A stretch of DNA of 64,000 nt from an uncultured Lachnospiraceae bacterium (GTDB lineage Bacteria > Bacillota > Clostridia > Lachnospirales > Lachnospiraceae): positions 1 through 64,000 of the forward strand of contig CANOVJ010000005.1 of NCBI GenBank assembly GCA_947570615.1, in the 5' to 3' direction. Positions 458 to 26,900 of the stretch are shown piece by piece (position 1 is the stretch's first letter; each line of letters starts with the position of its first letter). Position numbers and translations under genes: made by a program. Under the pieces are notes generated by a model. It was not told where the DNA came from and searched no databases. It saw only the letters and a list, made by a program, of their open reading frames with translations.

Positions 458-503
458 AAAAGTACGCAGGACAGATTGATTCCTGTCCTGCGGATACTTT
501 TTC
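458..503 (-). terminator. Rho-independent terminator downstream of the sigma-factor operon
   Basis: Perfect 10-bp stem CGCAGGACAG/CTGTCCTGCG (465-474 and 483-492) with an 8-nt loop, flanked by AAAAGTA on one side and TACTTTT on the other. It lies about 100 nt past the stop of the gene at 601-1818. A/T runs on both sides mean it could act in both directions. Confidence 0.75.
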
Positions 504-600
504 CATGAAACAATGTCTGTTTTATATCCGAAATACTCAGATAAGACTCTATGACCAGACCGCCCGGGTAAAGTGCGGGCTTTCCCTGATAAATTCCGCT

Positions 601-1818: not shown

Positions 1819-1828
1819 AAAAAACACC

Positions 1829-2353
1829 TCATCCTTTCTCATTGTAATCGCCGGTTCTGGCCTTACCCCTTTCGGACTTCTTACTCGGACGATCATTTTC
1901 CTCAAGCATCTGCCGCAAATGTTTCCTGGCACTGGACAATTTGGATCTTACGGTTCCCGCAGGAAGTCCAAAAAGCTTTCCCAACTCTGCGGAATTGTAG
2001 CCTTCCAGGTAGCGCAGGACAAAAAGGGTCTTCTCATCCTCGGCAAGAAGGGACAGAAGAAGCGCATCGTCGATCCGGGCATACTGTGTCTCGTCCTGCC
2101 CTTCCTCCGGCAGTTGATCCACGACGGTCTCAAAGGCTTCCCTGCGTTTCCTGTCAATATACAGATTTTTTATGGTTCGGTACATCCAGGCTCTCCTGCG
2201 GCCCGGATTAAGCTCCTCCAGCAGTCCGGCATTTATCAGCGCGCGTAAAAATGCCTCCTGCACCAGATCCTCCGCAAGCGTCACTCTCCCCGTCATGGAT
2301 ACGCACCATTTTGTCAGCTCCTGACAGAGAGCCCCATACAACTCATCAATCAT
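1829..2353 (-). CDS. ECF-type RNA polymerase sigma factor (sigma-70 family)
   Basis: At 174 aa this has the usual ECF size. Region 2 is visible in the first third (AEDLVQEAFLRAL, then RRRAWMYRTIKNLYIDRKRR). Region 4 is a C-terminal helix-turn-helix (ALLLSLLAEDEKTLFVLRYLEG... ELGKLFGLPAGTVRSKLSSARKHLR; broken here to stay short). It directs core polymerase to a dedicated promoter set, probably including its own operon. It is first in a two-gene operon with the VNGD-repeat protein. A TATAAT-like hexamer lies upstream at 2402-2407 on the minus strand. No classical anti-sigma gene is next to it. Confidence 0.92.
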   Translation of the reverse strand: MIDELYGALCQELTKWCVSMTGRVTLAEDLVQEAFLRALINAGLLEELNPGRRRAWMYRTIKNLYIDRKRREAFETVVDQLPEEGQDETQYARIDDALLLSLLAEDEKTLFVLRYLEGYNSAELGKLFGLPAGTVRSKLSSARKHLRQMLEENDRPSKKSERGKARTGDYNEKG

Positions 2354-2401
2354 GACACGCCTGTACCTTTCTCTAAAATCTCTGTCCTTTGTGCCTTCCC
2401 A

Positions 2402-2407
2402 ATTATA
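2402..2407 (-). promoter_or_regulatory. Possible -10 hexamer of the ECF sigma operon
   Basis: TATAAT on the minus strand 49-54 nt upstream of the sigma-factor ATG. No convincing -35 sits at 16-18 nt, so the call is weak; the operon may instead use an ECF-type promoter that I cannot recognise. Confidence 0.3.
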
Positions 2408-2455
2408 TAACGTTTGAAAAGGGCAAAGTGTTGAAATTGTTGTGCTCCCCTGCGC

Positions 2456-2487
2456 AAAAAAATCCCCGTGCCGTTGCCGGCACAGGG
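2456..2487 (-). terminator. Terminator downstream of the sirtuin gene
   Basis: On the minus strand: stem GTGCCG/CGGCAC (2468-2483) with an outer CCC/GGG pairing, followed by GGGGA and a run of T (A-run at 2456-2462 on the plus strand). It lies about 45 nt past the sirtuin stop. Confidence 0.8.
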
Positions 2488-2531
2488 CGTATTATTGTAT
2501 CACGGTAAGAATATATATTTATGAACATATT

Positions 2532-3329
2532 TCATACCTCAATCTGATTCATCACTTTACCAATGCTGTCATGGAATACAAGGTCTGCCCTGCCTTCCAT
2601 TTTCGTTTTGCCTTTATTGATCATCACAAGATACTTTCCATGATACATATGCGCAAGCTGCGCCGCACTTCCCACCTCCAACGATGTCCCGCCAATCATC
2701 AGGCAGTCCGCATACCTGATGAGCGCAACGGCTTCCTCATATGCTTTTTGTGGCAGGAGCTCTCCATACAGGGTCACATCAGGACGTACCATCCCGCCAC
2801 ACTTCGGGCAGTGCGGTATATCCACTGCATTTTCAAAAATAAGCTCCGGCCCATATTCTGCACGGCAGCTTACACAATGGCAGCGGAGCGCACTTCCATG
2901 AATCTCCCATACCTTCCTGCTTCCTGCCTTCTGATGCAATCCATCGATGTTCTGGGTAACAATCCCGTCCAGCTTTCCTCTTTGCTCCATTTCCGCCAGT
3001 TTCTTATGCGCAGCATTCGGTTGTAAATTCCGGCAATCCAGATTTTTTCGGAAATAAGAGAAAAATATCCCCGGCCTTTTATCAAGGCAATCATAGCTGA
3101 GCAGATATTCCGGTTTATAATTCCGAAACTTACTGTCCTTCTTATTATATAGCCCATCCCTGCTCCGGAAATCCGGTATCCCGCTCTCTGTAGAGACACC
3201 TGCCCCGCCAAGAAAAACAATATGCTTCGATTTTTCTATAATCTCGTTCAGCGCATCTGTTTTCTGTCCGCCATCCAACCCACGGAAAAATTTTTCCTTT
3301 TCCCTCTGAGATAAAAACTCCGGCAGCAT
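2532..3329 (-). CDS. cobB: NAD-dependent protein deacylase, sirtuin (SIR2/CobB family)
   Basis: A 265-aa protein that removes acyl groups from lysine using NAD+, giving nicotinamide and O-acyl-ADP-ribose. Visible hallmarks are the NAD-binding GAGVSTESGIPDFRS loop near residue 43, TQNIDGLH, the catalytic His in WEIHGS, two zinc CxxC pairs (CVSC and CPKCGG), GGTSLEVGSA, and MINKG near the end. Length and domain order match bacterial class II/III-type sirtuins. The ATG at 3329 has only a weak upstream ribosome site. It stands alone between the sigma operon and fumarase, with its own terminator. Substrates cannot be read from sequence. Confidence 0.95.
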   Translation of the reverse strand: MLPEFLSQREKEKFFRGLDGGQKTDALNEIIEKSKHIVFLGGAGVSTESGIPDFRSRDGLYNKKDSKFRNYKPEYLLSYDCLDKRPGIFFSYFRKNLDCRNLQPNAAHKKLAEMEQRGKLDGIVTQNIDGLHQKAGSRKVWEIHGSALRCHCVSCRAEYGPELIFENAVDIPHCPKCGGMVRPDVTLYGELLPQKAYEEAVALIRYADCLMIGGTSLEVGSAAQLAHMYHGKYLVMINKGKTKMEGRADLVFHDSIGKVMNQIEV

Positions 3330-3385
3330 CGTATCAAATCACCCCGTCCATCGGCTCCTATACAGTCTCTTTAACTTAACTGTGT

Positions 3386-3940
3386 TTACTCTTCCTCCCG
3401 GTACTGTGAAACCGCCGTCTCATAGAGATTATTCCCCTGTGAATCGATAACCACAATAACCGGAAAGTCCCTGACCTTAAGCTTGCGGATCGCTTCCGTT
3501 CCCAGATCGTCATACGCGATTATCTCTGAGCTTTCGATGGATTTCGAGAGCAGCGCCCCCGCTCCTCCCACAGCGGCAAAATAAACAGCCCCATTGCGCA
3601 CAATCGCCTCTACGACCGCCTCCGATCTCTTTCCTTTTCCGATCATTCCCTTAATTCCCAGATCCAGAAGCGCAGGCGTATACTTATCCATCCTGCTGGC
3701 GGTGGTTGGGCCGGCCGAGCCGACAGGGCGTCCTTCCCGGGCCGGAGAAGGCCCCATATAATAAATAACATTGCCTTTCATCTCAAAGGGAAGCTTCTCT
3801 CCTTTGTTGAGAGCCTCATACATTCTCTTATGGGCAGCATCCCTCGCGGTGTAGATCGTCCCCGTCAGATATACATAATCGCCACTGCGCAGCTCCCCCG
3901 CTGTCCTGTCGTCAAACGGTACCGTAATATGCCTGTCCAA
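3386..3940 (-). CDS. fumB: Fumarate hydratase class I, beta (C-terminal) subunit
   Basis: A 184-aa beta subunit of the oxygen-sensitive two-subunit fumarase that interconverts fumarate and malate; L-tartrate dehydratase is the main alternative family member. It contains GDYVYLTGTIYTARDAAHKRM and the GPTTASRMD substrate-binding segment. I place the start at the TTG at 3940: GGAGG lies exactly 6 nt upstream, and the protein then begins LDRHITVPF, the usual N terminus of this family. The upstream ATG at 4003 would add 21 unconserved residues and has no such site. It follows the alpha subunit by about 95 nt. The symbol follows one convention; fumB/fumC-terminal naming varies. Confidence 0.9.
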   Translation of the reverse strand: MDRHITVPFDDRTAGELRSGDYVYLTGTIYTARDAAHKRMYEALNKGEKLPFEMKGNVIYYMGPSPAREGRPVGSAGPTTASRMDKYTPALLDLGIKGMIGKGKRSEAVVEAIVRNGAVYFAAVGGAGALLSKSIESSEIIAYDDLGTEAIRKLKVRDFPVIVVIDSQGNNLYETAVSQYREEE

Positions 3941-4035
3941 TGTAATCCTCCTGCTTTTGTCTGCATTCTCCGCCCGGAGCAGACTCCTTCCTGTTTTCAT
4001 CACCCTGTCATGAGAGGCCAGGCGCCGCCTGAATC

Positions 4036-4878
4036 TTAAAGCGCCCGCACACAGTGTCTGTTCACATGACAGCAGATATTGACCGCCACCGGAAGTCCCG
4101 CAATGTGGGTCGGAAAGGTATTAATGTTGACGGCCAGCGCAGTGTTGGTTCCTCCAAGCCCTCCGGGCCCGATTCCGGAACGGTTGATCTTCTCCAGAAG
4201 CTCTTTCTCCAGCTCCTGTACCCAGGAAACCTCCGACCGCTGATCCGCCGGTCTTGTCAGCGCCATTTTGGCCAGAAGCGCACATTTCTCAAAGGTTCCT
4301 CCAATCCCCACGCCCACCACCATGGGCGGACAGGCATTGGGCCCGGCCTCCTTCACCGCGGCAAGAACAGCGTCCCTGACCCCTTCTATCCCGTCCGCCG
4401 GTTTGAGCATAAAGATCCGGCTCATATTTTCACTGCCGAACCCCTTGGGCGCAACCGTGATTTTGAGCTGATCCCCGGGCACTATGTCATAATGAATTAC
4501 CGCGGGCGTATTATCCCTGGTATTCTCCCGGACAATGGGATCTCCCACCACCGACTTTCGCAGATATCCTTCCCGATAGCCCTGCCTGACGCCTTCATTT
4601 ACAGCCGCCGTGAGGGAACCGCCCTCGATATGAAGCTCCTGTCCCACTTCCATGAATATTACCGCCATCCCCGTATCCTGGCATATGGGGATATTCTCCC
4701 GGGCCGCAATCCGAAGATTATCCTCAAGCTGGCCCAGCACCTGTCTGCCGACCGGCGAGCGCTCCGCCTCCCTGGCCCTGCACAGTGCCCATTCCATATC
4801 CTGCGTCAGACAATGATTGGCCTCAATACACATTTCTTTTATGGCTGCTGTAACATCATCCACTCTGATTGTTCTCAT
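4036..4878 (-). CDS. fumA: Fumarate hydratase class I, alpha (N-terminal) subunit
   Basis: A subunit of about 280 aa carrying the [4Fe-4S] cluster of class I fumarase. Visible family marks are ENIPICQDTGMAV with the first cluster cysteine, the GSENMSR segment, NACPPMVVGVGIGG with the second cysteine, and RSGIGPGGLGG. I prefer the ATG at 4878 because MRTIRVDDV lines up with the family N terminus, but an ATG at 4887 is also close to the GGAGG site (3 nt spacing), so the start is unsettled. It is first in the alpha-beta pair. With the following HIT and flavodoxin genes on the same strand, it may belong to a longer transcript. Confidence 0.93.
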   Translation of the reverse strand: MRTIRVDDVTAAIKEMCIEANHCLTQDMEWALCRAREAERSPVGRQVLGQLEDNLRIAARENIPICQDTGMAVIFMEVGQELHIEGGSLTAAVNEGVRQGYREGYLRKSVVGDPIVRENTRDNTPAVIHYDIVPGDQLKITVAPKGFGSENMSRIFMLKPADGIEGVRDAVLAAVKEAGPNACPPMVVGVGIGGTFEKCALLAKMALTRPADQRSEVSWVQELEKELLEKINRSGIGPGGLGGTNTALAVNINTFPTHIAGLPVAVNICCHVNRHCVRAL

Positions 4879-4902
4879 ACCCGGCATTCTCCTCCCGCAG
4901 GC

Positions 4903-5313
4903 CTACTCCGCAATAATCCTCCTGATCTGCTCAAGCTCTTCCCTGTCAGGTTCTCCCGCAATATACTTCAGGATTTCCCCGTCGTTATGGTACCGGGGAA
5001 TCAGATGCATATGAAAGTGAAAAACCGTCTGCCCGGCAACCTCTCCGTTATTCTGCACAATGTTAAAGCCGTCGCAGCCCAGCTTCTGCGTCATGGTCGT
5101 CATCATTCTCCTGGCCAGCCGCATGGCATCGGCCGCCATGTCCTCGGGAAGCTCATAAAGATTCGCGTAATGCCGCCTGGGGATGATCAGCGCATGCCCC
5201 TTTGCAGCGGGGGCCACATCCAGAATCACCTTAAACTGCTCATCCTCAAAGATCGTAAACGACGGGATTTCCCCCGAAATAATTTTACAGAAAATACAAT
5301 TGTCCTGTTTCAT
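4903..5313 (-). CDS. HIT (histidine triad) family nucleotide-binding hydrolase
   Basis: A 136-aa HINT-like protein expected to hydrolyse or transfer nucleotidyl groups, such as AMP-lysine or AMP-phosphoramidate. It has the N-terminal CIFCKIISGEIPS motif with a CxxC pair, the HALIIPRRHY strand, and the catalytic triad HFHMHLIPR near residues 98-105. The ATG at 5313 sits 8 nt after GGAGG; an ATG 6 nt earlier abuts the site. It is 25 nt ahead of the fumarase alpha gene. Confidence 0.92.
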   Translation of the reverse strand: MKQDNCIFCKIISGEIPSFTIFEDEQFKVILDVAPAAKGHALIIPRRHYANLYELPEDMAADAMRLARRMMTTMTQKLGCDGFNIVQNNGEVAGQTVFHFHMHLIPRYHNDGEILKYIAGEPDREELEQIRRIIAE

Positions 5314-5352
5314 ATTCATCCCCTCCTGTCCGCCTGGCTTTGTATCCTTTAT

Positions 5353-6357
5353 TCACGCTTTTCCCATAAAGGAAAAGATCTGATCCAGCGTGCGCAGTAT
5401 TCTGAAATCACCCTTCATCTTCATTGCGCCTCCCATAAACGCTCTCTGGAAGGTCATTCTGGCAAAAAGAATATCATCCATGGTTTCTTTGCTCATCTGT
5501 AATTCCACGTCCGGATTTTCCACACTTCCATAATAATAGTTGTTCTCCGGTCCGTCCACTTCTATGATAAAGGGCTTTCTTTTCCCCTCCACCTGAATTT
5601 TGTAGAGCGCCTTAAAGCCCGGCTGGGGAATGAAATGCTCCCGGAACTCCCGGATATATTCCTCCTCGCTCTCCTCCTGATCGCCGTCTCCCATCAGATC
5701 CCGGAACAGACTGGTCAGCTCCTGGATATCCTCCTTCTGACGCTTCACATAGCTGTCGTCGGAGGCATACTGGGACAGCTGCTCGGATTCCTGCGGTGTC
5801 AGGTCAATGTTTTTCGTGATGGAGACCTTCTGCTTTACCGCCTGGTTGCTGGCCGGAAGGCATGCCATTTTCTGATTGATCGTGCGGTACATATTCTCCG
5901 CCTTTTTTTCGATAATTTTTATATACTCCTCATTATCGTCAAATACAGACGGATCCTCAATATAGCCGCAGATTCCACTGCACGGAAGTCCGCCCAGTAT
6001 CTCCCATGCCCCGGTGAGAGTCAGCTTTCCTTCCCGTTCTCCGTAGGTGGTGGACATGACAATGGGACACATATAAGTTCCGGCTATCTTTTCCTTATCG
6101 CCATAGAGCCAGCAGGCGTCAAGAAACTGATGCATATACCCGCCAATCCCATACCACTCCACCGTAGACGCGAGTATAATGCCGTCCGCATTTTTTATCG
6201 TCTGTGGAAGCGTGGTGATCCTGTTCTTCAGCTCATACAGGTTAAATCGCTCAACGGTAACATGGAGTTCCTCCAGAACCATCTGCATCCTGTTAATCAC
6301 ATATAGGGTAGGATCGTCCATCAGGCCTCTGCCGCCATAGTAAATGTTGATTTTCAT
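5353..6357 (-). CDS. Flavodoxin-fold NAD(P)H-dependent oxidoreductase fused to an SCP-2 domain
   Basis: A 334-aa protein. Residues 1-165 look like an FMN-reductase/flavodoxin fold (MKINIYYGG start, ADGIILASTVEWYGIGGYM phosphate and FMN region, LTLTGAWEILGGLPCSG). Residues about 225-334 look like an SCP-2 sterol-carrier lipid-binding domain (ALYKIQVEG... NNYYYGSVENPDVEL... GAMKMKGDF). The middle (175-225) is acidic linker. The likely role is flavin-dependent reduction with a bound hydrophobic ligand; the substrate is unknown. The ribosome site is AAAGGCGG. It is upstream of the HIT gene on the same strand, with a 39-nt gap. Confidence 0.8.
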   Translation of the reverse strand: MKINIYYGGRGLMDDPTLYVINRMQMVLEELHVTVERFNLYELKNRITTLPQTIKNADGIILASTVEWYGIGGYMHQFLDACWLYGDKEKIAGTYMCPIVMSTTYGEREGKLTLTGAWEILGGLPCSGICGYIEDPSVFDDNEEYIKIIEKKAENMYRTINQKMACLPASNQAVKQKVSITKNIDLTPQESEQLSQYASDDSYVKRQKEDIQELTSLFRDLMGDGDQEESEEEYIREFREHFIPQPGFKALYKIQVEGKRKPFIIEVDGPENNYYYGSVENPDVELQMSKETMDDILFARMTFQRAFMGGAMKMKGDFRILRTLDQIFSFMGKA

Positions 6358-12622: not shown

Positions 12623-13381
12623 TCAAACCTCGATCGCGATCATCCGCACCGACAGCGCATAGGCTCCCAGATAGATCAGAAGGCAGATACTCATCACCAC
12701 TGTTCCCTGTGCCGAATGATACAGTCCTTTAAAATAACCCGGGGAGGTAAGGCTGATATAGAGCATGATCAAAAACGGCATGGCATTCATAATTTTCTGT
12801 TCCAGCCTTCTGGCGCTGAGCAGAACGGCGATCTCCTTTTCCGTGTCGATCTTATGGACGATGATATCCGCCGTCTTCTCCATAACAGATGCCATGTTTC
12901 CACTGCTCCTGTGGGAAATTTCATATACCTGCGCAAACTCTCTGATCTCGCTGATCTGTGTCTGATCCCCAATCCGTCTCCACAGCTCCGGAAATCCCAC
13001 ATTATTTTCTCTGCCGGATCTGAGCATGCGGATCATCCGGCAGATACTGCTGCCTTCTCCGTACAGGGCCCGCATATCCCCATAACTGGCAAGAAATGCG
13101 TTTTCCGCAGAAAACCCGGCCTTCTGTCCGGCAGATACCAGCAGCATCAGCTCCTTGAACTGCTCTCTGGCCTGCTCCTTCTTTTTCCGGCAAAGATTTT
13201 TTTCCTCCATGCGGTAGTACAGATATCCCACCACGGTCAGAGGAGCCATGGCCCAGAGAGACTGATAAAAGAAGTAATTTAAAGCGAAAACTGCCAGAAC
13301 GCTTTTTACCGCCAGAACGCCCCTCTCCCTGGCGCTGACCGGCAGAAAATCATTTTCCTTCCGCTTTCCTGATACTCTCAT
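12623..13381 (-). CDS. tadB: TadB-like T2SS F-domain platform protein
   Basis: A 252-aa inner-membrane protein of the Flp pilus machine. It has two N-terminal hydrophobic segments, a cytoplasmic GspF-type domain (FKELMLLVSAGQKAGFSAENAF and ISHRSSGNMASVMEKTADII) and two C-terminal helices. It is on the short side for TadB because the N-terminal domain is reduced. It overlaps tadA by 32 nt. Confidence 0.85.
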   Translation of the reverse strand: MRVSGKRKENDFLPVSARERGVLAVKSVLAVFALNYFFYQSLWAMAPLTVVGYLYYRMEEKNLCRKKKEQAREQFKELMLLVSAGQKAGFSAENAFLASYGDMRALYGEGSSICRMIRMLRSGRENNVGFPELWRRIGDQTQISEIREFAQVYEISHRSSGNMASVMEKTADIIVHKIDTEKEIAVLLSARRLEQKIMNAMPFLIMLYISLTSPGYFKGLYHSAQGTVVMSICLLIYLGAYALSVRMIAIEV

Positions 13382-14558
13382 CTGCGGATTCCCCCACCTT
13401 TCTCAGCTCTCCCTGTATTTTTCCATTCTCCGCGATTCCACTTCGCTCAAACCGGTAGATCGTGCGCATGACCACATCCCCCTGGTCAAAGCCCACGGGC
13501 TGTGCGACCTCCAGAATCCTTCTGCTGCCGTCGGCAAGCCGGCCCAAATGAACCATCAGCCCAAATCCGGCGGCAATCTGCTTTCGTATGGCCGAAAGCG
13601 GCATCTCCATCCCCATAAGCACCATGGTCTCGAGACGGCTGACCACATCCCGGACACTGTTGGCGTGTACCGTGGTCATGGCGCTGTGTCCCACATTGAC
13701 ACTCTGTAGCATATCCACCGCCTCCTTTCCGCGGACCTCCCCCACAATAATCCTGTCCGGCCTCATCCTCAGAGACGCCCGGATCAGATCCCGTATGGTG
13801 ATCTCCCTGCACCCCTCCACATTTGCATTTCGGGTCTCAAGGCTCACAAGGTTGGGTATGTTCCTGATCTGCAGCTCAGCGCTGTCCTCAATGGTGATCA
13901 CTCGCTCCGTATCCGGGATAAACCGCGAGAGCACATTCAGGAAAGTCGTCTTACCGGAGCCGGTACCGCCGCTCACCAGTATGTTACAGCCCGCACGCAC
14001 CAGTCTCTCCAGCTCGTCCCGGCATTCCCGGGTCAGCGCCCCCATGGCAAGAAGCTGCTCCATGGTGATGGGCCTGGGCGGAAAACGTCTGATGGTGAGA
14101 ATGGGCCCGTTGACAGCCACCGGATCCAGCACCACATTCACCCTCGCCCCGTCCGGCAGTCTGGCGTCCACAATGGGCGACGCCTCATTCACCACACGGT
14201 TACAGCCCGCCGTGATCTGCCAGATTACATGCCTGAGCTTTTCCCTAGAGTCAAAGGCTATGGGGAGTTTTTCCAGCTTTCCCTCCCTTTCTATGAAAAT
14301 TCCTTCCACGCCGTTCACCATAATTTCCGTGATTTCCGGGTTTTCAATCAGCTCCTGCAAAATTCCGAGCTGACGGATGGAATGAAAAATCTCCCGCCGC
14401 AGCCGCTCCCTTTCCGCCACCTCCAGATGGCGCTTTTTGCTTTCCTGACGGATCTGCTCATCGATCAGCTCCCTGATCTCCTCCTCCGTCATCTCCCTGG
14501 ATAAATCCAGCCTCTGCGTGATCAGCTCCTGAAGGCGTCTCTCATCCTCCCTCTCCAT
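13350..14558 (-). CDS. tadA: TadA/CpaF secretion ATPase
   Basis: A 402-aa hexameric ATPase that powers Flp pilus assembly. Walker A is GGTGSGKTT (about residue 193), followed by the Asp box with IEDSAELQ, Walker B near RIIVGEVRGKE, and the His box THANSVRD. The N-terminal helical domain carries EIMVNGVEGIFIERE. The ribosome site GGAGG has 6-nt spacing. It overlaps tadZ upstream by 17 nt and tadB downstream. Confidence 0.95.
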   Translation of the reverse strand: MEREDERRLQELITQRLDLSREMTEEEIRELIDEQIRQESKKRHLEVAERERLRREIFHSIRQLGILQELIENPEITEIMVNGVEGIFIEREGKLEKLPIAFDSREKLRHVIWQITAGCNRVVNEASPIVDARLPDGARVNVVLDPVAVNGPILTIRRFPPRPITMEQLLAMGALTRECRDELERLVRAGCNILVSGGTGSGKTTFLNVLSRFIPDTERVITIEDSAELQIRNIPNLVSLETRNANVEGCREITIRDLIRASLRMRPDRIIVGEVRGKEAVDMLQSVNVGHSAMTTVHANSVRDVVSRLETMVLMGMEMPLSAIRKQIAAGFGLMVHLGRLADGSRRILEVAQPVGFDQGDVVMRTIYRFERSGIAENGKIQGELRKVGESADESIRKAEGK

Positions 14559-16379: not shown

Positions 16380-16682
16380 ATGAAAATGTATTTTAGCCAA
16401 AGCTCACGGGCAAACCGCGCTCTGACGGAACGGGAGATCGAGCGCAACGCGCTTTTGTCCGATCTGGAAAAGACCAAACGGGCGCTGGAGGTTGCCTACG
16501 CCGGATTTGACAATGTGACAGAACCGGATCTGATCGACTGTTATATTTATGAGGTGAATTCTGTGCTGAAGCGCTATAAGTTCCTGATGGAACAGGCAGC
16601 GGCCTTACTTCCGCTGCCTGAAGAAAATACGCATCCCGCCCCGTTAGGCGCGGAAACCCCTCTCACCTCCCTGACCGGCTAA
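16380..16682 (+). CDS. YaaL-like DUF2508 family protein
   Basis: A 100-aa helical protein with the DUF2508 pattern: ALLSDLEKTKRALEVAYAGFDNVTEPDLIDCYIYEVN, here cited in part (residues ~24-60), then LKRYKFLMEQA. Role unknown; the family commonly sits beside recR and bofA. The start at 16380 has GGAGG with 5-nt spacing. Its 3' end overlaps the fliS 3' end by 39 nt in the opposite orientation. Confidence 0.8.
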   Translation: MKMYFSQSSRANRALTEREIERNALLSDLEKTKRALEVAYAGFDNVTEPDLIDCYIYEVNSVLKRYKFLMEQAAALLPLPEENTHPAPLGAETPLTSLTG

Positions 16683-17120
16683 GTTTTCGGTCAGGGAATC
16701 TCTTCCGTAGGTAAGCCCCGCGTAAACGGTCTGAGTATTGGTCATGATAGGGGCGGAGGTATCCGTCCCGGCAATTTTTTCATAAGCCCCGTGGAGCTTT
16801 TCCATCATTGCCTTTACATGGGAAAGCTCCTTACTGCTTCCATATATGGCGGCCCTGGTCAGCTCCTTACCGGCAAATATATACAGCTTACGCAGATTCC
16901 CTGCCGGTTCATATTCCATGTGCAGGGAGGCCATCAGCTCTTTGATACACCCTCTGGCCTTCCTGATTCCATCCTTAAAGCCGCGTTCATCCCCATCCTC
17001 ATGAGCCTTCATGGCATCCTCCAGATAGGTGATGGTCATCTCATAGAGAATCACCACCAGAGCGCTCTTATTAGCCTGGGTAATCCTGAGCGTGTACTGC
17101 TGCTTCAGTTCCTTCGTCAT
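16644..17120 (-). CDS. fliS: Flagellar export chaperone FliS
   Basis: A 158-aa chaperone that binds the flagellin C terminus in the cytoplasm and keeps it export-competent. The FliS pattern is clear: Q-Y-Tx-R-I-TQANKSALVVILYEMTITYLEDA near the N terminus, then MASLHMEYEPAGNLRKLYIF. The C-terminal ~30 residues are extended and low in conservation. It follows flagellin by 17 nt. The 3' end overlaps the convergent YaaL-like gene by 39 nt. Confidence 0.9.
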   Translation of the reverse strand: MTKELKQQYTLRITQANKSALVVILYEMTITYLEDAMKAHEDGDERGFKDGIRKARGCIKELMASLHMEYEPAGNLRKLYIFAGKELTRAAIYGSSKELSHVKAMMEKLHGAYEKIAGTDTSAPIMTNTQTVYAGLTYGRDSLTENLAGQGGERGFRA

Positions 17121-17137: not shown

Positions 17138-18304
17138 TTACTGCAACAGCTGCAAAACCTGTGCCGGTCTTTCATTTGCCTGAGCCAGAACCGAGGTGCT
17201 GGCCTGGGAAAGCACCTGAAGCGTAGTGTACTCCGTCATCTCCTCGGACATATCCGTATCCATGATGCGGGAGTAGGCCGCCGTCATGTTTTCGCTGATG
17301 ATATCCAGATTGTTGACCGTGTGCTCCAGCCGGTTCTGGTACGCGCCAATGCGGCTGCGCACCGAGGATACATACTTGATCGCGCCGTCCATCCTGCCCA
17401 GAGCGTCTTTTGCCCCCTCCTGAGTGGACAGATCGATGTTGGAAATTCCCATCAGCTCTATGGACACCTTCGGAATCCGGGCGGCAAGCTGCTGGCCCTC
17501 ATTGGCCCCGATCTCCATATCCAGAGAGCCAAAGCCCTCCAGCGCTATATGGGCGTTTATACTCAGACCGGCAGGCGTCTTGGGCTCGCTGACCCTGAAC
17601 TTGATTTCTTCCCCCTGAACCCCTTTCACAGAGACAATATTTCCGTCCCAGTTAACCTCCGTCCCGGAGGGAACGGCCGCGTTTTCCTCGTAGTCGGAAA
17701 TTCCGGGGATACCGGGAATCGGAGGGTTCGCCTGGTCATCCCCGTTTTTAAAGCCCTTTACCTTCTCGATCGTTCCGTCCGCCTTAAAATCAACATCAAG
17801 GGATACCAGATACTCCCCGCCAATCACTGTGTCGCTGTAATAAATCACCTGCATATCCTGATTATCCGAATACCCTCTCAGATCAAAGGAGCCGTCAAGG
17901 AGCTTCTGCCCGTTGAACTCCACCTCGCCGGCCGTCCTGTCGATCTCCTCCGTGAGCTGTTTCACCTCATTGTCGATGATCTCCCGGTCATCGTCCGTCA
18001 GCGTCCCTGTGCTGGCCTTCACGGAGAGCTCGTTGATCCTCTGGAGCATCTCATGGATCTCCGAGAGCGCCCCGTCGGCGATCTCCATGATGGAGATTCC
18101 GTCGTTGGAGTTCTGGGTCGCCTGATCCAGATTCTCGATCTGGGAATTCATGCGCTTTGCCATTGCAAGCCCGGCCGGGTTATCCTTTGCATTGACGATC
18201 TTAAGGCCGGAGGAGAGCCTTGCCATGGACTCCTGCAGCTTATTATCAGATTTGTTTAAATAGTTGTTGGCAATCACTGCCGAAACATTATAATTGATTC
18301 TCAT
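17138..18304 (-). CDS. hag: Flagellin
   Basis: A 388-aa filament subunit. The D0/D1 N terminus reads MRINYNVSAVIANNYLNKS then LSSGLKIVNAKDNPAGLA. The C-terminal D1/D0 shows RIGAYQNRLEHTVNNLD and ends VLAQANERPAQVLQLLQ. The central region carries a proline-rich PPIPGIPGISDY loop and a compact beta domain, unlike the classical Bacillus Hag core. Upstream, its ATG lies inside the end of the helical-repeat gene (17-nt overlap); downstream is fliS. FlgK, FlgL, FliD, FliW and CsrA are not in the window, so the rest of the flagellar genes must lie elsewhere. Confidence 0.93.
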   Translation of the reverse strand: MRINYNVSAVIANNYLNKSDNKLQESMARLSSGLKIVNAKDNPAGLAMAKRMNSQIENLDQATQNSNDGISIMEIADGALSEIHEMLQRINELSVKASTGTLTDDDREIIDNEVKQLTEEIDRTAGEVEFNGQKLLDGSFDLRGYSDNQDMQVIYYSDTVIGGEYLVSLDVDFKADGTIEKVKGFKNGDDQANPPIPGIPGISDYEENAAVPSGTEVNWDGNIVSVKGVQGEEIKFRVSEPKTPAGLSINAHIALEGFGSLDMEIGANEGQQLAARIPKVSIELMGISNIDLSTQEGAKDALGRMDGAIKYVSSVRSRIGAYQNRLEHTVNNLDIISENMTAAYSRIMDTDMSEEMTEYTTLQVLSQASTSVLAQANERPAQVLQLLQ

Positions 18305-20237
18305 ACCCCGTCATTCCTTTCTCTCGCCCGGTTTCCTGTATATATCCTATAAAAGCCCTCGCCGCCCGGTAAAGCGCCGCGCTCTCCTCCCCCGCCCCGG
18401 CGGCTCTCTCTCCCGCGGAAGACTCCTTTAAGGCGAACTGCGCCAGATCCAGCTTTTCTCCCGTGGCAAAGTAAAGACTGCCGCTCTCAAGCTCCTCCCC
18501 CTGGAGCATTTTCTCAAGGAGAGGCTGATTTTCCTTAAGAATTCCCGTTCCTTCCTCTGAGCTGCATATACACAGCCCCTCCAGCCCCCTGGCAGTGAGC
18601 TGAAACTCCGCGGCGGTCTTTCCAAAGGAAGGGGACTCAAAGGCAACGGCAACCCTGCTCTCCTGCCCGGAGCTGTGAATAACCTTTAAGTTGATGGAGG
18701 TGAGGAATCCGCCGATGTTGGCCGGAATCTCATAATTTTCCTCCCTGGCCATGCTCCCCATGAAGGAAAACTGCTTATACAGAGCGCTCATGGCTTTCAC
18801 GTCCAGCGCTCCTGCGGATGATCCGAAAGCCATCCTCTCCAGAAGCCCCTGCCAGGATTTCGTAAGCCCCTCATATGCCTTCTGCGCATTCTCCCGTCCG
18901 TCCAGAGCCTTTATGACTTCCTCCCCGGACTGCCCCGCCGCGCTTTCTTCCTCCTGCGTCCGCACAGATTCCCGGGAATCGCTCTTCTCCTTCTCTTTAA
19001 GCCTCTGCGCTCTCCTCCAGATCCCTGAAGGATCCTTCAGAAATTCCGCCGCCGCCAGCAGATGGTCGGCCGTAACCGGCTTCTCATAGTCGGAAAGCGT
19101 CCGCAGCACGTCCGCCTCGCTTCTGGCCGCACTGCGCGCCTGCTCATACAGCATCCGGTCAAATTCCTCCCCGGCCTGTTCGTCTCCCGCCTCCTCAAGG
19201 AGTCTGCCCGGCTCCTGATCCCCGGGCAGGACATCCAGCGGAATGCCTCTGGCGATCTGGCTGGTGATACTCTCGCCGGCGCTTCCCTTCCTCTGTGCGC
19301 CGCCAAAGTGCTCATCCACGGAGTAGTCCATACTCCCCCGCCTGGCGCTGCGCAGCTCCCGCAGGAGATTTCCGAGAGTAAGCTCCGCCCCGCTGTGCCA
19401 GAGCGCACCCACCGCCGCGTCGTCGGCCTTTTCAAGCTGACGGACCAGCCTGTAGACACCGATATAGGCGCTTTTTTCCTCCTGCGAAATGCCTTTCTTT
19501 TTTTCCAGCTTATACAGGAAACGACTGTAGGACTCCATCTCCCCGGCCGGATCCTCCTGCTGACCGGAGAAATAGTTCCCCAGCTCCTCAAGAGGCATGA
19601 TCAGAGGGTTGATTCCCTCCCGGATCATATTCAGAACCCTCCCCGGGCTCATCTCCTTTATGACATCCTTTAAAAGATCGTCCTTTTCTCTGATCTGACT
19701 GATATTCTCCTGCGTGATTTCCAGCGAATTATAGCCCAGAATCCGCACCGCCCGCCGGTTCTTCTGAGAGTTCTCAAGGTTCATCTCCTCCAGAATATCG
19801 TCCACATTGCGGAACGCCTTCTGTATGGAGTCCCCCAGATCCCCGCGGGGCTGAGTCATCATGGTCTCATAGCTCTTTCCGGCCTTCTCCATGGCCAGAC
19901 TCTCCTGCCTGCCGCAGTGGTGTACTTCTCTTAACGTATATGTAACGGAAATCCGGGCCACCATGGAGACCGGCGCGGAGCGTATCCCCTTCAGAACATC
20001 CAGGGTTTCCTCATACAGCGAGGCCTTCTCCCGGGCCTTATCCGTGTCCACCTCTCCCGTCATGGCCCTGGCAAGGCTGTTCTCCGCCTCCCGGAGCTTA
20101 TTCACCAGCTTTTCCAGAGACGAAGTCTCGATCTGTATCCCTCTGCGCAGAAGCCTTAAGTTGGCCTCCACCGTCATGGACAGACGCACCTCCTCGAGAA
20201 GCCTGCGCCCGCGAAGACTCTCCTCCCCGCTCTGTTC

Positions 20238-20700
20238 CCTCCCGGAGGTATGGGAACGGTAATCTGTCCTTCCCCCCGCCGAAAGCTCACCCTGGGCTGC
20301 GAACAGATTCCTCAGAGTAAGAGGTAAATCCCTGGCTACAATGATATCCACCGCCCGGGCTGTGACGGAAGCGGTCTGTTCCATGATGGAGAGGGCGCGC
20401 TCTACATACGTCTCCTTCCTTCCCAGATCGGCCCTCGCCGGATTGATTCCGTCCGCCAGGCCGCAGGCCGCAGACGAAAGGAAATCCTCCGCACTCACCG
20501 GAAAGGAATGGTCCCTGATCTGCTGTAACAGAGAAAAAGTGTCCTCATTTAAGGGAACCCCCTTCTCCACCAACCACCTGGCGTCCTCCAGGGTTTCCTG
20601 AGACACCGGACAGCCCGCCTGTCTGATCACCTTCTCCATCTGAGGCCTGAGCCCGTCAAAGTCGATCTCCTCCGGCTTCCTGGCATAGTACCCCGCCACG
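20238..20700. repeat. 463-bp direct tandem repeat, copy A
   Basis: Identical by eye to 20701-21163. On the coding (minus) strand this copy is read second and out of frame. The unit starts with CCTCCCG. Confidence 0.95.
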
Positions 20701-21163
20701 CCTCCCGGAGGTATGGGAACGGTAATCTGTCCTTCCCCCCGCCGAAAGCTCACCCTGGGCTGCGAACAGATTCCTCAGAGTAAGAGGTAAATCCCTGGCT
20801 ACAATGATATCCACCGCCCGGGCTGTGACGGAAGCGGTCTGTTCCATGATGGAGAGGGCGCGCTCTACATACGTCTCCTTCCTTCCCAGATCGGCCCTCG
20901 CCGGATTGATTCCGTCCGCCAGGCCGCAGGCCGCAGACGAAAGGAAATCCTCCGCACTCACCGGAAAGGAATGGTCCCTGATCTGCTGTAACAGAGAAAA
21001 AGTGTCCTCATTTAAGGGAACCCCCTTCTCCACCAACCACCTGGCGTCCTCCAGGGTTTCCTGAGACACCGGACAGCCCGCCTGTCTGATCACCTTCTCC
21101 ATCTGAGGCCTGAGCCCGTCAAAGTCGATCTCCTCCGGCTTCCTGGCATAGTACCCCGCCACG
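20701..21163. repeat. 463-bp direct tandem repeat, copy B
   Basis: Second identical copy, directly abutting copy A. CCTCCCG recurs at 20238, 20701 and 21164, so the junctions show 7-bp microhomology. On the coding strand this copy is read first and in frame; the frame breaks at 20700/20701. Confidence 0.95.
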
Positions 21164-21904
21164 CCTCCCGCCGCGTAATAGCCTCTTCCCTGACGGTCCG
21201 CATCTGCGGCGGAGGAATATTTCGCCGTGTAGAGATTCTCCGCATCAGGCGTCAGATTATTTTCCACCATATATTTCACGCTGCCGTCGGTGAGTTCCCC
21301 CGCCTGACTCAGCAGCTTCCACGCCTCCATGACGGAAGCGATGTTCTCCTGCGTGAGAGGAACGTTCTTCTCCTCAAACTGCTTTTTCAGCTCTCTGGCA
21401 AAGGCTTCGCTTCCCGCGATCTCCTCAAGGGCCCCGTCGCTGACCGTATCCGTATAGCCCGCCACCTGCGTCCCGCCCCTGGCCAGAGCCACCTTTATCC
21501 TGTCCACAATGGTGACCACCGTCTCAATATCCGTACTGCCGGGGTGAAAGCCTTCCTTCTGGAGCCTGGCGAAATCCTCGTCGGACATGGATCCGGCCAT
21601 CACCGCCATATAGTTACGGCGCGCCGTCACATCCTCCTGCTCAACCTGCCGGACCAGCTCCTCCACGCTCCGTCCATGCCCCGCATAGGCGCCCTCATCC
21701 GCCGACGTGCCGGAAATGTCCATCACAAAACCGCCCGCACCAGACCTTGCCGTTTCCTGCGGGGCTGCGTGCGGAGCCGTCTCCCTTCCCGTATTTATAT
21801 ATCCATGAGCGCCCTTTATCCCGGCGCTTTCGACCAGAATGTTCATACCATCTCTCATTTCTCTGAAACTGACAGACGCTGCCGCGCTTCGCGGCCAGCT
21901 AATT

Positions 21905-21940
21905 GTAAAAAAGGATGAATGCAGGAGCATTCACCCTTTA
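21905..21940 (-). terminator. Terminator of glgB
   Basis: On the minus strand: AAGGGTGAATGC/GCATTCATCCTT stem (21911-21922 with 21927-21938, one mismatch), 4-nt loop and a T run (A run at 21907-21912 on the plus strand). It lies about 35 nt past the glgB stop and just upstream of the flagellar-locus gene. Confidence 0.85.
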
Positions 21941-21973
21941 TTTCGGCATATACAATCTTTTTCTTAACCGCGC

Positions 21974-23887
21974 TCAGAAAACAAATATGGCGGCGCTGTA
22001 GGGCGGAAGATCCAGCGTGATACTGTAATCCCTGTAATCGCACTGGCCTTTGACGGCTGTGATCTCCTTCGGGATCTCTCCCCCCGCTCCCCCGAACCTC
22101 TCCTCGGCGCTGTTTAAAAGGAGTTTATATTTTTTCTTTTTTGGTACGCCCAGCCTGTAATTCTCCCACGCGATGGGCGTCATGTTGATGATAAAGAGAA
22201 GGTTGTTTTTGCCACTGGAGGATTTCCTGAAAAAGCTGTAGGTGCTCCTGTCCCTGTCGTCGCAGTTGAGCCATTCAAACCCGTCCCAGCAGTTGTCGAA
22301 CTCATACATGCAGGGATACTTCCGGTAAATCTTCAAAAGCTCCTTCATGTATTCGTGGAGACCCCTGTTGAGATCCTCTCCCAGCAGATACCAGTCCAGC
22401 TCCCTCTCCTCGCTCCATTCCCGCTCCTGCCCGAAGTCCTGGCCCATGAACAGAAGCTTCTTGCCCGCATGGCCAAACATATAGGCGTAGCCGCAGCGCA
22501 GATTCGCATATTTATCGATCTGGTATCCCGGCATCTTGTTCACCATGGAGCATTTCAGATGCACCACCTCGTCGTGGGAGAGGGGCAGGATATAGTTCTC
22601 ATATTCATTGTAGGACATGGCAAAGGTAAGGGCGTAGTGATTGTTCTTCCGGAAATAGGGATCCAGCTTCATGTACTCGCAGAAATCATGCATCCATCCC
22701 ATATTCCACTTGAAGGAGAATCCCAGGCCGTCCTCCTCCACGCTTCCTGTCACCTTCGGCCACGCGGTGGATTCCTCCGCTATGGTCAGAAATCCCGGAT
22801 ATGTACCCAGCACCACGGAATTTAAATGCTTAAAGAACTCAATGGCCTCCAGATTTTTGTTTCCCCCGTACCTGTTGGCCACCCACTGCCCGTCCTTCTT
22901 CCCGTAGTCCAGATAAAGCATGGAAGCCACCGCGTCCACCCGGATCCCGTCCACATGGAACTCTTTGATCCAGTAGAGCACGTTGGCGATCAGAAAGTTT
23001 TTGACCTCGGTCTTTCCATAGTTAAAAATCTTTGTCCCCCAGTCGGGATGCTCGCCCTTTCGGGGATCCGGATCCTCAAAAATACACTGACCGTCAAACC
23101 TTCCAAGACCGTGGGCATCCGTGGCGAAATGGGCCGGAACCCAGTCAAGGATCACGCCAATCTTATTCCTGTGCAGCTTATTGACAAGGTACATGAAATC
23201 CTCCGGCTCGCCGTAGCGGGAGGTGGGCGCATAGTATCCCGTCACCTGATAGCCCCAGGAGCCGTCGAAGGGATGCTCCGCGATCCCCATCAGCTCGATA
23301 TGAGTGTACTTCATCTCCTTTAAATACTCCACAATCCGGTCCGCAAACTCCCGGTAATTGTAAAATCTCGCCTCCTCCGGCCTTGGATGGCACATCCAGG
23401 AACCGATATGGCACTCGTAAATGGCAACCGGCTCTTTGCGGTAATCCTTCTCGCCGCGCTCCTTCATCCACACGTCGTCCGACCAGGAAAAAACGGAAAT
23501 ATCCGCCGTCCGGGAGGCCGTCCCGGGGCGCAGCTCCGCGCTGTTTGCAAAGGGATCCGCCTTATAGAGCTTTTCCCCGGAAGGAGTTGTGATCATAAAC
23601 TTGTAGAGCTCATGCACCCCCACTCCCGGGATAAACACGGTATGGATCCCTCCGGGCCCGAGCCTGGTCATGGGATGAGCCGTTTCGTCCCACCCATTAA
23701 AGGTTCCGATCACATGGACGCTGGCCGCATTGGGCGCCCACACGCCGAAAAACATGCCCTTTTTTCCATCCTGAACGCTTGGATGCGCTCCAAGCTTTTT
23801 GTAAATGTCATAGTGCGTCCCCTGGGCAAACAGGTACTGGTCTGCCTCCGAAATAAATACTTCTCCCTCTGTTCTCTTTGCTTCCAT
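21974..23887 (-). CDS. glgB: 1,4-alpha-glucan branching enzyme
   Basis: A 637-aa GH13 enzyme that forms alpha-1,6 branches in glycogen. An N-terminal CBM48-like domain (FFGVWAPNAASVHVIG and FNGW) precedes the barrel. Catalytic segments are visible: DWVPAHF, GIRVDAVASM (nucleophile Asp), TIAEEST (acid Glu), LPLSHDEVVH (transition-state Asp). Length is normal. The ATG at 23887 follows GAAGG; a longer frame to 23926 overlaps the upstream gene. Other glycogen genes (glgC, glgA, glgP) are not present here. It lies 19 nt after the TPR/pseudo-AAA gene, so is probably cotranscribed with it. Confidence 0.95.
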   Translation of the reverse strand: MEAKRTEGEVFISEADQYLFAQGTHYDIYKKLGAHPSVQDGKKGMFFGVWAPNAASVHVIGTFNGWDETAHPMTRLGPGGIHTVFIPGVGVHELYKFMITTPSGEKLYKADPFANSAELRPGTASRTADISVFSWSDDVWMKERGEKDYRKEPVAIYECHIGSWMCHPRPEEARFYNYREFADRIVEYLKEMKYTHIELMGIAEHPFDGSWGYQVTGYYAPTSRYGEPEDFMYLVNKLHRNKIGVILDWVPAHFATDAHGLGRFDGQCIFEDPDPRKGEHPDWGTKIFNYGKTEVKNFLIANVLYWIKEFHVDGIRVDAVASMLYLDYGKKDGQWVANRYGGNKNLEAIEFFKHLNSVVLGTYPGFLTIAEESTAWPKVTGSVEEDGLGFSFKWNMGWMHDFCEYMKLDPYFRKNNHYALTFAMSYNEYENYILPLSHDEVVHLKCSMVNKMPGYQIDKYANLRCGYAYMFGHAGKKLLFMGQDFGQEREWSEERELDWYLLGEDLNRGLHEYMKELLKIYRKYPCMYEFDNCWDGFEWLNCDDRDRSTYSFFRKSSSGKNNLLFIINMTPIAWENYRLGVPKKKKYKLLLNSAEERFGGAGGEIPKEITAVKGQCDYRDYSITLDLPPYSAAIFVF

Positions 23888-23906
23888 TGCCTTCAACCCC
23901 CAAAAT

Positions 23907-26900
23907 TCAGTAGTGCATAAAATCATTTTCCCGGAGAACGATCATGTCCTCCTCGTCATACCGCTTTCCCAACAGCACGTCGAAAAAGTGCTTCGGCGTC
24001 TTTTTGTCCGCATAGTAGATGGCCTCATCCACCAGCTCCTCGATCTCCGTCAGCGTGACCTCATGGTCGCTGGTCTGCATGTCCGCGATCCTGGTGTGCA
24101 GCGCCAGTACCCCCAGCTCATCGATGGCATACTCCTGTTCCAGTGCGTATTTGCGCGCATATTTGACAAGCGTCTGGTCGTCCAGGGCCTCCACGTCCAC
24201 TCTGAGATTAAAGACCTCCGATATCTCCGGATACGCGCCGACAAGCTCCTCCATGGCCGCCTTTGTATCCTCCAAAAGGACGATCAGGCCTTTCCCCTCC
24301 TGGTTCAGCGTATCCAGAAGCTGTTCCATGGCCGCCTTCTTCATGGCTGACGCGGACTCCACGATAAGCGCTCCCCCGGAAAGCTTGCCCAGAGTGGCCG
24401 GGACATCCTTCCTGTTCATGGTGCTTCCGGAAATCTTCGCCACCTTGCCGGAAAAATTGCTGTCCGAGAGCTGTACCTCCTTTACCAGCAACTTTGCAAG
24501 GGCTATGGTTCCCGTTCCCTCCTCCCCCGTAATGATCACATTCCCGGTGTAGGAAGCCATGCTGATATTATCGATCGTATCCACGATCTGCCTTCTGGTG
24601 CGCTTATGATGGATAAAGGGGGCGAACATCTCCCTTTCCCCGTTGGTCATCTCCCTGGAGGCGTGTTTTTCCTCGCTCTCCTCCTCCCTGGTGCCTTCCC
24701 GTTCCGCAGGCTTTTCAGCGGCTGCTTTTTCGGAGGAATTTTTCTCCTGCGCGGGCTTTCTGAAGGAAATCTTCCTTCCCCTGGGCTTCTCCTCCGGCTC
24801 CTGCTCTGCCTCCTGCAGTTCGCCGGAATCGGCTACCCGGACTTCGTCGTCCTCCGCCTCATCTCCGGCTCCTTCCGCCTCTTTTTCCATCGCCGCACGC
24901 GCTTCCTCCTGCTGCCAGAGCTTCTCCTCCAGCTCCTCCAGCGTCAGGTTCTCCTTCGTCCAGAGGGATTCCTCCCTTATCTGTCCGGGCTCTCCTCCGT
25001 CGGACGGCTCCTTCTGCGTGGGCGCTTTCGCTGCCGGCGTTTTCGCCGTCGATATATTCATCGACGTATTCGTCGTCTCTTCCTGCGGCATATCCGCGGT
25101 CTGCCCCGTCTCCTCTTCCTCTCCCGCCGGCTCCGCCTTTCGGTTTCTGTCAACCGCCCGCAGGATCCCCAGACGCTCCTTTGCGATTTTGAGCTTTTCC
25201 TCCTTTATGGCGGCGGTGACCATGGCCTTTTCCAGCTCCTCCAGAAGTCCCGATTTGGTGGCCTCGTCGAAATCCGCAAAAAGGGTGTCGGTCTGCTGAT
25301 GCACACGCTTCCGAATCTCCTCCATCCGCCTGCGCTCATTGTCCTGCTTCATCTTTTCCCATTCGGCCATCACATCGTCTATGCTGAGCTGACCGGTGAT
25401 CTGCTTCTCGATCCTCTCCTGCTCGGGAACCACCAGCGAAAGCTGTCCGTCATATTCCTGGGTGAGGATATTATCGTAGCCGGAGGGCTTATGAAAGGTT
25501 CTGATCACCCCGGTGTTGCTCAGGGCCGGATCCGCGCCGGCCGCCGCTTCCCTTCCCTGCCCGGATTCCTCCGGCCCGCCGGCCTGTTCCCCGATGGGGG
25601 TAAACAGCGTCCTGGTTCCGTTCCGCTCCGCCAGCTCGGACACCACGTCCTGGATATTGACCTCCTCCGTGTTCCCGAAAAATACCTCCTCGGCGGAATT
25701 GCTGCCAGCAAAATTCTGCGGCCTTAACCGGGGCGCAGTCCTGGACTCCTGCTTTTGTTCCTGCGAGGAGGGCCCCTCCGGCATACGCTCGTCATACCCC
25801 TTCACCGGCTCGTATACCTGGGTTTTCTGACGATCCGCCTGCCGGGCAGGCCGCTCCTGTCCGTTCATGATCTGATCCGCTGCGCTGGCCGGTGCGTTTT
25901 TCTCCCGGGCTCTGCGCTCCCCGGTTTTTTCAAAAGCTCCGGATCCCTTCAGATTCTCCCCCGCCTGCCCTGCAGAAGCGTCCGATCCGCTCTCGCCGGC
26001 TCCTGCCTCCTGTCCGGAAGACTCCGGCCTTTTATGCTCATCCAGAATCTCCTTCATGCTCTCCGCCAGCTCCTTCTGGAGATTCATGGTATTGTACTGA
26101 CTTACATCCACGGTCTTTACCTGGATATCGAGCTCCTCTTTTCCCGGCACCTCCTGGGTATCGTCTGTCAGGATGTTCTCCTCCAGGCTGAACTCGTCGT
26201 CCTCTTCCTCCTCGTCGGGAACCTGCTCCGCAGCCTCCTGGATTGCTTTCTGATCCGCCGCAAAATCGGAGGTGATAAAGCCTCCTCCCTGCTTCATCTG
26301 CTCATATCTGGTCTGCTGCTCCTCGCTTAAGGGTTCATGAAGCATCTTAAGCTCCAGCGCCTTCACCACATAGCGGCCCTCCCCGAACCAGAGGGCCATC
26401 TCGTTACACTCTTCGACACATTTGGACTCAAGTCCAACCCTGTGATAGAGATAGGCCAGCTCATAAGCCCATTTTTCGCGGTAATCCCGCTTCTTGAGCT
26501 CCTCGAGCACCTCAATCCTCTCCTCAAGGCTCACCTCCTGCGCCTCGTACAGCTTGTATTGCAGCACATATCTCCCGCTGTCTTTGGGAGCCAGGTGTAC
26601 AAATTCCTTGTAATACTCTATCGCCTGCACGTACTCGCCCAGCTTGATGGATAACTCACACAGAGAATAGACGATCAGCCGGCCGCCGGCGTGCCGTTCA
26701 TAGGCAAGCAGGAGAATATCCCGGCTGTCCTCATATCTTCTGTTGATCTTATACAGATCGCTGATGGTACAGAGCATCATGGTGCTCTTGACGCGCCGCC
26801 AGTCAATGCTGTCCGCAATCTTCACGGCGTCCGCGTATCTGCCTTCCGCGATCAGTGATTTTATTTCATCCGCACGTACTTTGTACTCATATTTATCCAA
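23907..26900 (-). CDS. TPR protein with a C-terminal AAA+-like domain lacking a normal P-loop
   Basis: A 997-aa protein in three parts. Residues 1-200 are TPR-like helical repeats (RYADAVKIADSIDW, YVQAIEYYKEFVHLAPKD). Residues 200-750 are very charged, mostly Glu/Lys/Gln-rich and probably disordered or coiled-coil. Residues 750-997 resemble an AAA+ core of the CbxX/CfxQ kind. The Walker A position reads GEEGTGTI (about 792-799), without the K-S/T. The Walker B position reads GGALIVESA, without D-E. It is therefore probably a non-hydrolysing scaffold. The start is likely TTG 26900 with GAGGTGG 5 nt upstream; GTG 26909 lacks a site. It sits between rsmA and glgB on the same strand. Function unknown. 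Confidence 0.75.
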   Translation of the reverse strand: MDKYEYKVRADEIKSLIAEGRYADAVKIADSIDWRRVKSTMMLCTISDLYKINRRYEDSRDILLLAYERHAGGRLIVYSLCELSIKLGEYVQAIEYYKEFVHLAPKDSGRYVLQYKLYEAQEVSLEERIEVLEELKKRDYREKWAYELAYLYHRVGLESKCVEECNEMALWFGEGRYVVKALELKMLHEPLSEEQQTRYEQMKQGGGFITSDFAADQKAIQEAAEQVPDEEEEDDEFSLEENILTDDTQEVPGKEELDIQVKTVDVSQYNTMNLQKELAESMKEILDEHKRPESSGQEAGAGESGSDASAGQAGENLKGSGAFEKTGERRAREKNAPASAADQIMNGQERPARQADRQKTQVYEPVKGYDERMPEGPSSQEQKQESRTAPRLRPQNFAGSNSAEEVFFGNTEEVNIQDVVSELAERNGTRTLFTPIGEQAGGPEESGQGREAAAGADPALSNTGVIRTFHKPSGYDNILTQEYDGQLSLVVPEQERIEKQITGQLSIDDVMAEWEKMKQDNERRRMEEIRKRVHQQTDTLFADFDEATKSGLLEELEKAMVTAAIKEEKLKIAKERLGILRAVDRNRKAEPAGEEEETGQTADMPQEETTNTSMNISTAKTPAAKAPTQKEPSDGGEPGQIREESLWTKENLTLEELEEKLWQQEEARAAMEKEAEGAGDEAEDDEVRVADSGELQEAEQEPEEKPRGRKISFRKPAQEKNSSEKAAAEKPAEREGTREEESEEKHASREMTNGEREMFAPFIHHKRTRRQIVDTIDNISMASYTGNVIITGEEGTGTIALAKLLVKEVQLSDSNFSGKVAKISGSTMNRKDVPATLGKLSGGALIVESASAMKKAAMEQLLDTLNQEGKGLIVLLEDTKAAMEELVGAYPEISEVFNLRVDVEALDDQTLVKYARKYALEQEYAIDELGVLALHTRIADMQTSDHEVTLTEIEELVDEAIYYADKKTPKHFFDVLLGKRYDEEDMIVLRENDFMHY

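Follow-up and report, generated by a model that had tools for sequence, protein, structure and literature searches.

The draft genome of an uncultured Lachnospiraceae bacterium contains a perfect 463-bp tandem duplication within a gene of the DUF6240 family, which lies directly upstream of a flagellin gene. The duplication shifts the reading frame of the DUF6240 gene, which is a single open frame in all 29 same-genus loci that were read. The most plausible explanation, with a probability of about three in four, is a recent chance duplication that turned the gene off and that is reversible in principle, without a built-in switch. The window analysed here is a stretch of 64,000 nt comprising bases 1-64000 of contig 5 (119,421 bases) from a draft assembly of 112 contigs with 4,047,824 bases in total and a completeness of 94.78%.

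The 463-bp tandem duplication

The two copies of the repeat unit are located at positions 20238-20700 and 20701-21163 of the window. Relative to the DUF6240 gene, which is encoded on the minus strand, these are the distal (downstream) and the promoter-proximal copy, respectively. Direct comparison confirmed the original prediction that both are identical, with 0 differences over 463 positions, and Tandem Repeats Finder reported a repeat at 20238-21170 with a period of 463, 2.0 copies, 100% matches and 0 indels. The heptamer CCTCCCG, which had been noted at the junctions, starts at 20238, 20701 and 21164 and thus marks the distal end of the duplicated region (20238-20244), the junction between the two copies (20701-20707) and the promoter-proximal end (21164-21170; no strand assigned to the three sites). 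Because CCTCCCG flanks the 463-bp unit, the shifted self-match of the duplicated region is 470 nt long, corresponding to 463 nt plus the heptamer.

The only other row of Tandem Repeats Finder in the 64-kb window is a 49-nt repeat (80%), and none else is of the size of the 463-bp unit. Exact repeats of at least 40 nt at distances of 20-5999 were searched in the window and in 20 further stretches of the source genome (L055-L074), which together cover 459,421 bases or about 11% of the genome. The 463-bp duplication was the sole repeat of this kind, which rules out chance as the origin of the repeat itself. Exact repeats of at least 40 nt were also absent from 37 related loci with a total of 254,921 bases, in which L003 and L042 share an overlap.

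The interrupted DUF6240 gene

Including both pieces, the DUF6240 gene extends on the minus strand from an ATG at 21846 to a stop codon ending at 18288. A frame shift had been predicted from the length of the unit and follows from 463 = 3 x 154 + 1. The complementary claim, that a one-copy gene would be in frame, holds as well, as removal of one copy leaves 3559 - 463 = 3096 nt, which is 3 x 1032. In its present form, the gene is divided into an upstream piece (20656-21846, minus strand), consisting of 396 codons followed by a stop, and a downstream piece (18288-20774, minus strand). Position 20774 and the stop at 18288 delimit the open downstream frame, which has no clear start of its own. Its earliest start codon is a GTG at 20753, and no clear ribosome-binding site was seen before this codon when the sequence was read by eye. 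Both frames are open between 20659 and 20774 on the minus strand. This overlap of 116 nt exists because of the duplication alone and includes a run of six Gs on the coding strand at 20735-20740.

Both pieces match the DUF6240 family PF19753 well above its cut-off of 26.6 bits, the upstream piece with 82.5 bits (E 4.2e-23) and the downstream piece with 371 bits (E 4.6e-111), the latter in two stretches. No second DUF6240 locus was found in the source genome, in which the gene of the window is the sole one. Translation from the normal start would end after 396 codons in the shifted frame, so that the protein would lack its second DUF6240 domain and C-terminal part unless these are made from weak internal starts. 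Given the early stop and the lack of a clear downstream start, it is probable that neither the second DUF6240 match nor the C-terminal part is made. Judged from these features, it is very likely that the DUF6240 protein is switched off in the cells that were sequenced.

At the C-terminus of the downstream piece, a match to the Flg_hook domain (PF02120) was obtained with 15.9 bits and an E-value of 0.011, which is below the cut-off of 29.8 bits, so that the DUF6240 protein of the window does not reach a FliK-type Flg_hook assignment. Two other genes in the source genome exceed this cut-off, and both are of the FliK type with open frames. Among 29 intact relatives, DUF6240 was found in all 29 and Flg_hook at E-values of 0.1 or lower in 14, with a best value of 4.9e-7. 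These matches in the window protein and in 14 of 29 relatives suggest that the C-terminal part of the DUF6240 protein may be distantly related to FliK. A search of PDB sequences with a 29-member profile of the C-terminal part returned nothing convincing (best E 0.081), and NCBIfam contained no family for the upstream or the downstream piece. Rfam gave one sub-threshold match inside the DUF6240 gene (22.2 bits, cut-off 50), which was taken as chance. A search for the word DUF6240 found no paper in the literature collection used.

The probable DUF6240-flagellin operon and its upstream element

The flagellin gene is located at 17138-18304 on the minus strand. Its predicted overlap with the DUF6240 gene was borne out, as the flagellin start at 18304 and the DUF6240 stop codon at 18290-18288 overlap by 17 nt. 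Flagellin is followed downstream by fliS (16644-17120), and both frames are intact; GlgB is encoded at 21974-23926, upstream of the DUF6240 gene. The DUF6240 and flagellin genes are probably organised in one operon.

A putative sigma28-like promoter with the motif TTAAG-N15-GCCGAAAT and a hairpin lie upstream of this unit at 21910-21967 on the minus strand, with the motif at 21967-21940 and the hairpin at 21939-21910. In an exact-motif scan, TTAAG-N15-GCCGAAAT was present in 28 of 29 relatives (the exception being L031) and once in the source genome. The sigma28 consensus used consists of a -35 element TAAA, a spacer of about 15-17 nt and a -10 element similar to CCGATA. TAAG-N15-GCCGAAAT is close to the consensus given in a part of PMC3720852, while a loose sigma28 scan yields 47 matches in the window. 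Scans for sigma70 promoters and terminators detected no more sites in the window than in shuffled sequence (3 vs 2.2 and 6 vs 4.5, respectively), and the terminator scan listed the upstream hairpin on the plus strand only. As flagellin begins within the end of the broken gene and the whole unit lies downstream of the sigma28-like promoter, flagellin may suffer from the duplication as well. Its expression would perhaps be reduced via polarity and lost translational coupling.

The same locus in related genomes

The downstream piece had matches in 30 of the 35 same-genus genomes that were searched. Five genomes were without a match (G010, G013, G019, G034 and G035), two of which are only 59% complete, and the DUF6240 gene may therefore be dispensable in some species. 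The locus was read in 29 of the 30 matching genomes (L003-L031; G033 was left out). In all 29, the DUF6240 gene is a single open frame of 1000-1065 codons and flagellin, as located by tblastn, is directly downstream. The two genes overlap in 22 of these loci and are separated by a gap of 1-112 nt in the other seven. A comparison with sister genomes had been suggested as a check of the duplication, and it shows the duplicated form in none of the 29 same-genus relatives and the whole gene in each of them. This comparison of loci identifies an open gene with one copy as the ancestral state, from which the two-copy form of the window is derived. The nearest relative is G006 (contig CANDAG010000003.1), with an identity of 69% at the protein and 73% at the DNA level.

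Origin and age of the duplication

Presumably, CCTCCCG occurred by chance twice within the DUF6240 gene, at a distance of 463 bp, and the initial event was a tandem duplication between these 7-bp repeats, for which slipped or illegitimate recombination during replication would be the route. A junction homology of at least 7 bp occurs at 40 of 61,073 positions at a distance of 463 in the window outside the duplicated region (0.00065), in a fraction of 0.0009 among 379,052 randomly chosen pairs spaced 100-999 apart and at none of 1,487 positions in the distal part of the DUF6240 gene. Thus, such a homology is expected by chance in about 7-9 of 10,000 cases, which favours a duplication between short repeats over an unmerged contig overlap.

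The proximal site is not conserved, with the coding-strand heptamer CGGGAGG present there in none of 29 relatives. The distal heptamer is part of a linker between two DUF6240 stretches, and both the length and the sequence of this linker vary among relatives. Five copies of the heptamer were found elsewhere in the DUF6240 genes of relatives, none of them at the position of the distal site. CGGGAGG is not rare in the G+C-rich gene of the window, where the downstream piece contains it at two additional positions, which speaks against anything special about the sites of the duplication.

Neither the upstream nor the downstream piece contains a second stop or frame shift. Since both pieces are undecayed and the copies are identical, the duplication looks recent. 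In comparison with the nearest relative, pS and pN are 0.64 and 0.18 for the upstream piece (371 codons) and 0.72 and 0.20 for the downstream piece (797 codons). These values show past constraint on the DUF6240 gene and mostly reflect the time before the duplication; as synonymous sites are near saturation, they cannot date the event. With the nearest relative only 69% identical in protein, the dating is based on the identity of the copies alone.

Since its two copies match perfectly and lie side by side, the two-copy allele would be expected to collapse to one copy at an appreciable rate wherever recombination is present. Part of the original prediction was that the duplication could act as a reversible on/off switch. 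The reversible part holds to a limited degree, in that a perfect adjacent repeat could by precedent collapse in principle, while no mark of an evolved switch was found.

Alternative explanations

An artefact would mean that the cells have one copy and that the second one stems from an unmerged contig overlap or from a chimeric molecule. The sequence is known from one draft assembly in 112 contigs, the copies are perfectly identical and the relatives have the one-copy form only, all of which would fit. An unmerged overlap, however, predicts no homology between its end and its start, and the 7 bp shared here have a chance probability of about 0.0007-0.0009. In addition, no similar repeat exists in the other 395,421 genome bases sampled or in the rest of the window. 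A chimera formed at the heptamer during PCR or amplification would be compatible with the junction homology and with the absence of other repeats. Overall, an artefact is considered unlikely. A beginning loss of the gene under relaxed selection, in which motility has become dispensable and the DUF6240 gene is decaying, is possible but doubtful. It is in line with the five of 35 same-genus genomes that have no match, some of which are incomplete. Against it stand the absence of a second lesion in either piece, the intact frames of the adjacent flagellin and FliS genes and the two other open genes of the FliK type. A further reading concerns the 116-nt frame overlap with its G6 run (20735-20740), at which slippage could yield a longer protein with an internal duplication of 154 residues. 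This would need a +1 shift or the loss of one RNA base, six Gs are a short run, and nothing about the site is conserved, the overlap being a product of the duplication alone. Slippage is scarcely credible as an explanation, and ribosomal frameshifting as a function was rejected because of this origin of the overlap.

An evolved switch, in which selected duplication and collapse turn the DUF6240-flagellin operon off and on, can be motivated by the position of the gene in a flagellar operon, as the surface product of such an operon is a common target of phase variation. Between repeats as short as these, a new duplication should be much less frequent than collapse, and a switch cycle would thus be lopsided. 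Two-copy forms in relatives and kept repeats would be predicted for an evolved switch; the counts given above show neither, with no two-copy locus and no proximal heptamer among 29 relatives and a distal site in a variable linker. Moreover, the 7-bp homology is an ordinary chance repeat. Although reversible intragenic duplications have been published for motA of Campylobacter jejuni and for pneumococcal capsule genes, an evolved switch is highly improbable here. It also appears improbable, if somewhat less so, that one- and two-copy forms coexist and that duplication and collapse toggle the DUF6240 protein and the output of flagellin as a motility or antigen switch. Flagellin would in that case be toggled via its overlapping start and via transcription from the one upstream sigma28-like promoter. 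The preferred reading of a recent chance duplication makes the two-copy form a contingent and probably unstable loss-of-function allele of an already known kind.

Comparison with known intragenic duplications

Intragenic duplications in the pneumococcal genes cap3A, cap8E/wchA and tts have reportedly been described by Waite et al. in 2001 and 2003. The DUF6240 gene shares the features of the cap3A and motA kind, namely a perfect intragenic tandem duplication with a unit that is not a multiple of 3, by which the frame is lost. For pneumococcal capsule genes, loss by 'spontaneous, reversible sequence duplication' is stated in a passage of PMC4243769, and a reversion of a nine-base insertion of at most about 1e-5 is given in a passage of PMC4022640 that cites Waite et al. 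As in the present case, the capsule duplications are within an open frame, and according to these passages expression was abolished there and could be regained by reversion. The gene and the organism are different, however, and reversion and coexisting forms were shown for the capsule genes, whereas reversion is inferred and coexistence proposed for the DUF6240 gene.

In C. jejuni, three variants had spontaneously acquired a 49-bp duplication in motA, and one of them, taken as representative, reverted to the wild-type sequence in motility agar (PMC3928116). This Type C change resembles the duplication in the window, as it forms a direct repeat in a flagellar gene and shifts the frame. The unit is 49 bp in motA compared to 463 bp here, and Type C was one of several spontaneous classes in laboratory culture, whereas the present duplication is known from an assembly alone. 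For Xenorhabdus nematophila, PMC6786866 describes tandem duplications in lrp, 26-116 bp in length, under a heading 'diverse and not reversible'. From what is presented there, these are also intragenic tandem duplications that represent spontaneous loss-of-function alleles, although lrp, unlike the gene in the window, is a regulator gene. The case of lrp indicates that reversibility of tandem duplications is no general rule.

If real, the allele provides a natural case in which a flagellar operon contains a frame-shifting duplication that is probably unstable, and a warning that draft genomes may list alleles of this type wrongly, as pseudogenes or as two genes. The uncharacterised DUF6240 gene deserves notice too, as it immediately precedes flagellin in each of the same-genus loci that were read. 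Natural mutants of this kind could reveal whether the DUF6240 protein is needed for motility.

The conserved hairpin and further observations

The hairpin directly follows the sigma28-like motif at the predicted start point, and a 100-nt sequence folds there with -40.8 kcal/mol (z -4.6). In an alignment of the window with 28 relatives, 99.5% of 377 cells pair, and two-sided changes were found in 5 of 13 pairs (16 cells). Neither the pairing fraction nor the number of two-sided changes was reached by any of 500 shuffles; 10 further pair types in the hairpin alignment were not above shuffles. A model of the hairpin had 19 matches at an E-value of 0.001 or lower among 146 genomes of the order. 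These comprise the source genome, six further members of the family and 12 genomes from other families. The DUF6240 gene is directly downstream of the hairpin in all six other family members. GlgB is upstream in four of these six; in another, the start of the contig is too near for GlgB to be assessed, and L079 has no GlgB within the 1.5 kb examined. The 12 loci from other families had no match to DUF6240, GlgB or flagellin. As the element accompanies the DUF6240 gene, it may be more than a terminator of GlgB, and the hairpin may serve as this terminator, as a 5' RNA structure, or as both.

Near the flagellin cluster, a TadA/VirB11-like secretion ATPase (T2SSE) is encoded at 13350-14558 on the minus strand. 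Its best NCBIfam model is TIGR03819 with 293.9 bits, below the cut-off of 373.15. In eight named loci of the Lachnospiraceae type (L042-L049), GlgB is located at most about 250 nt upstream of the DUF6240 gene in seven and 3.7 kb upstream in L045, and a flagellin match follows the DUF6240 gene in all eight, in seven of them adjacent to it.
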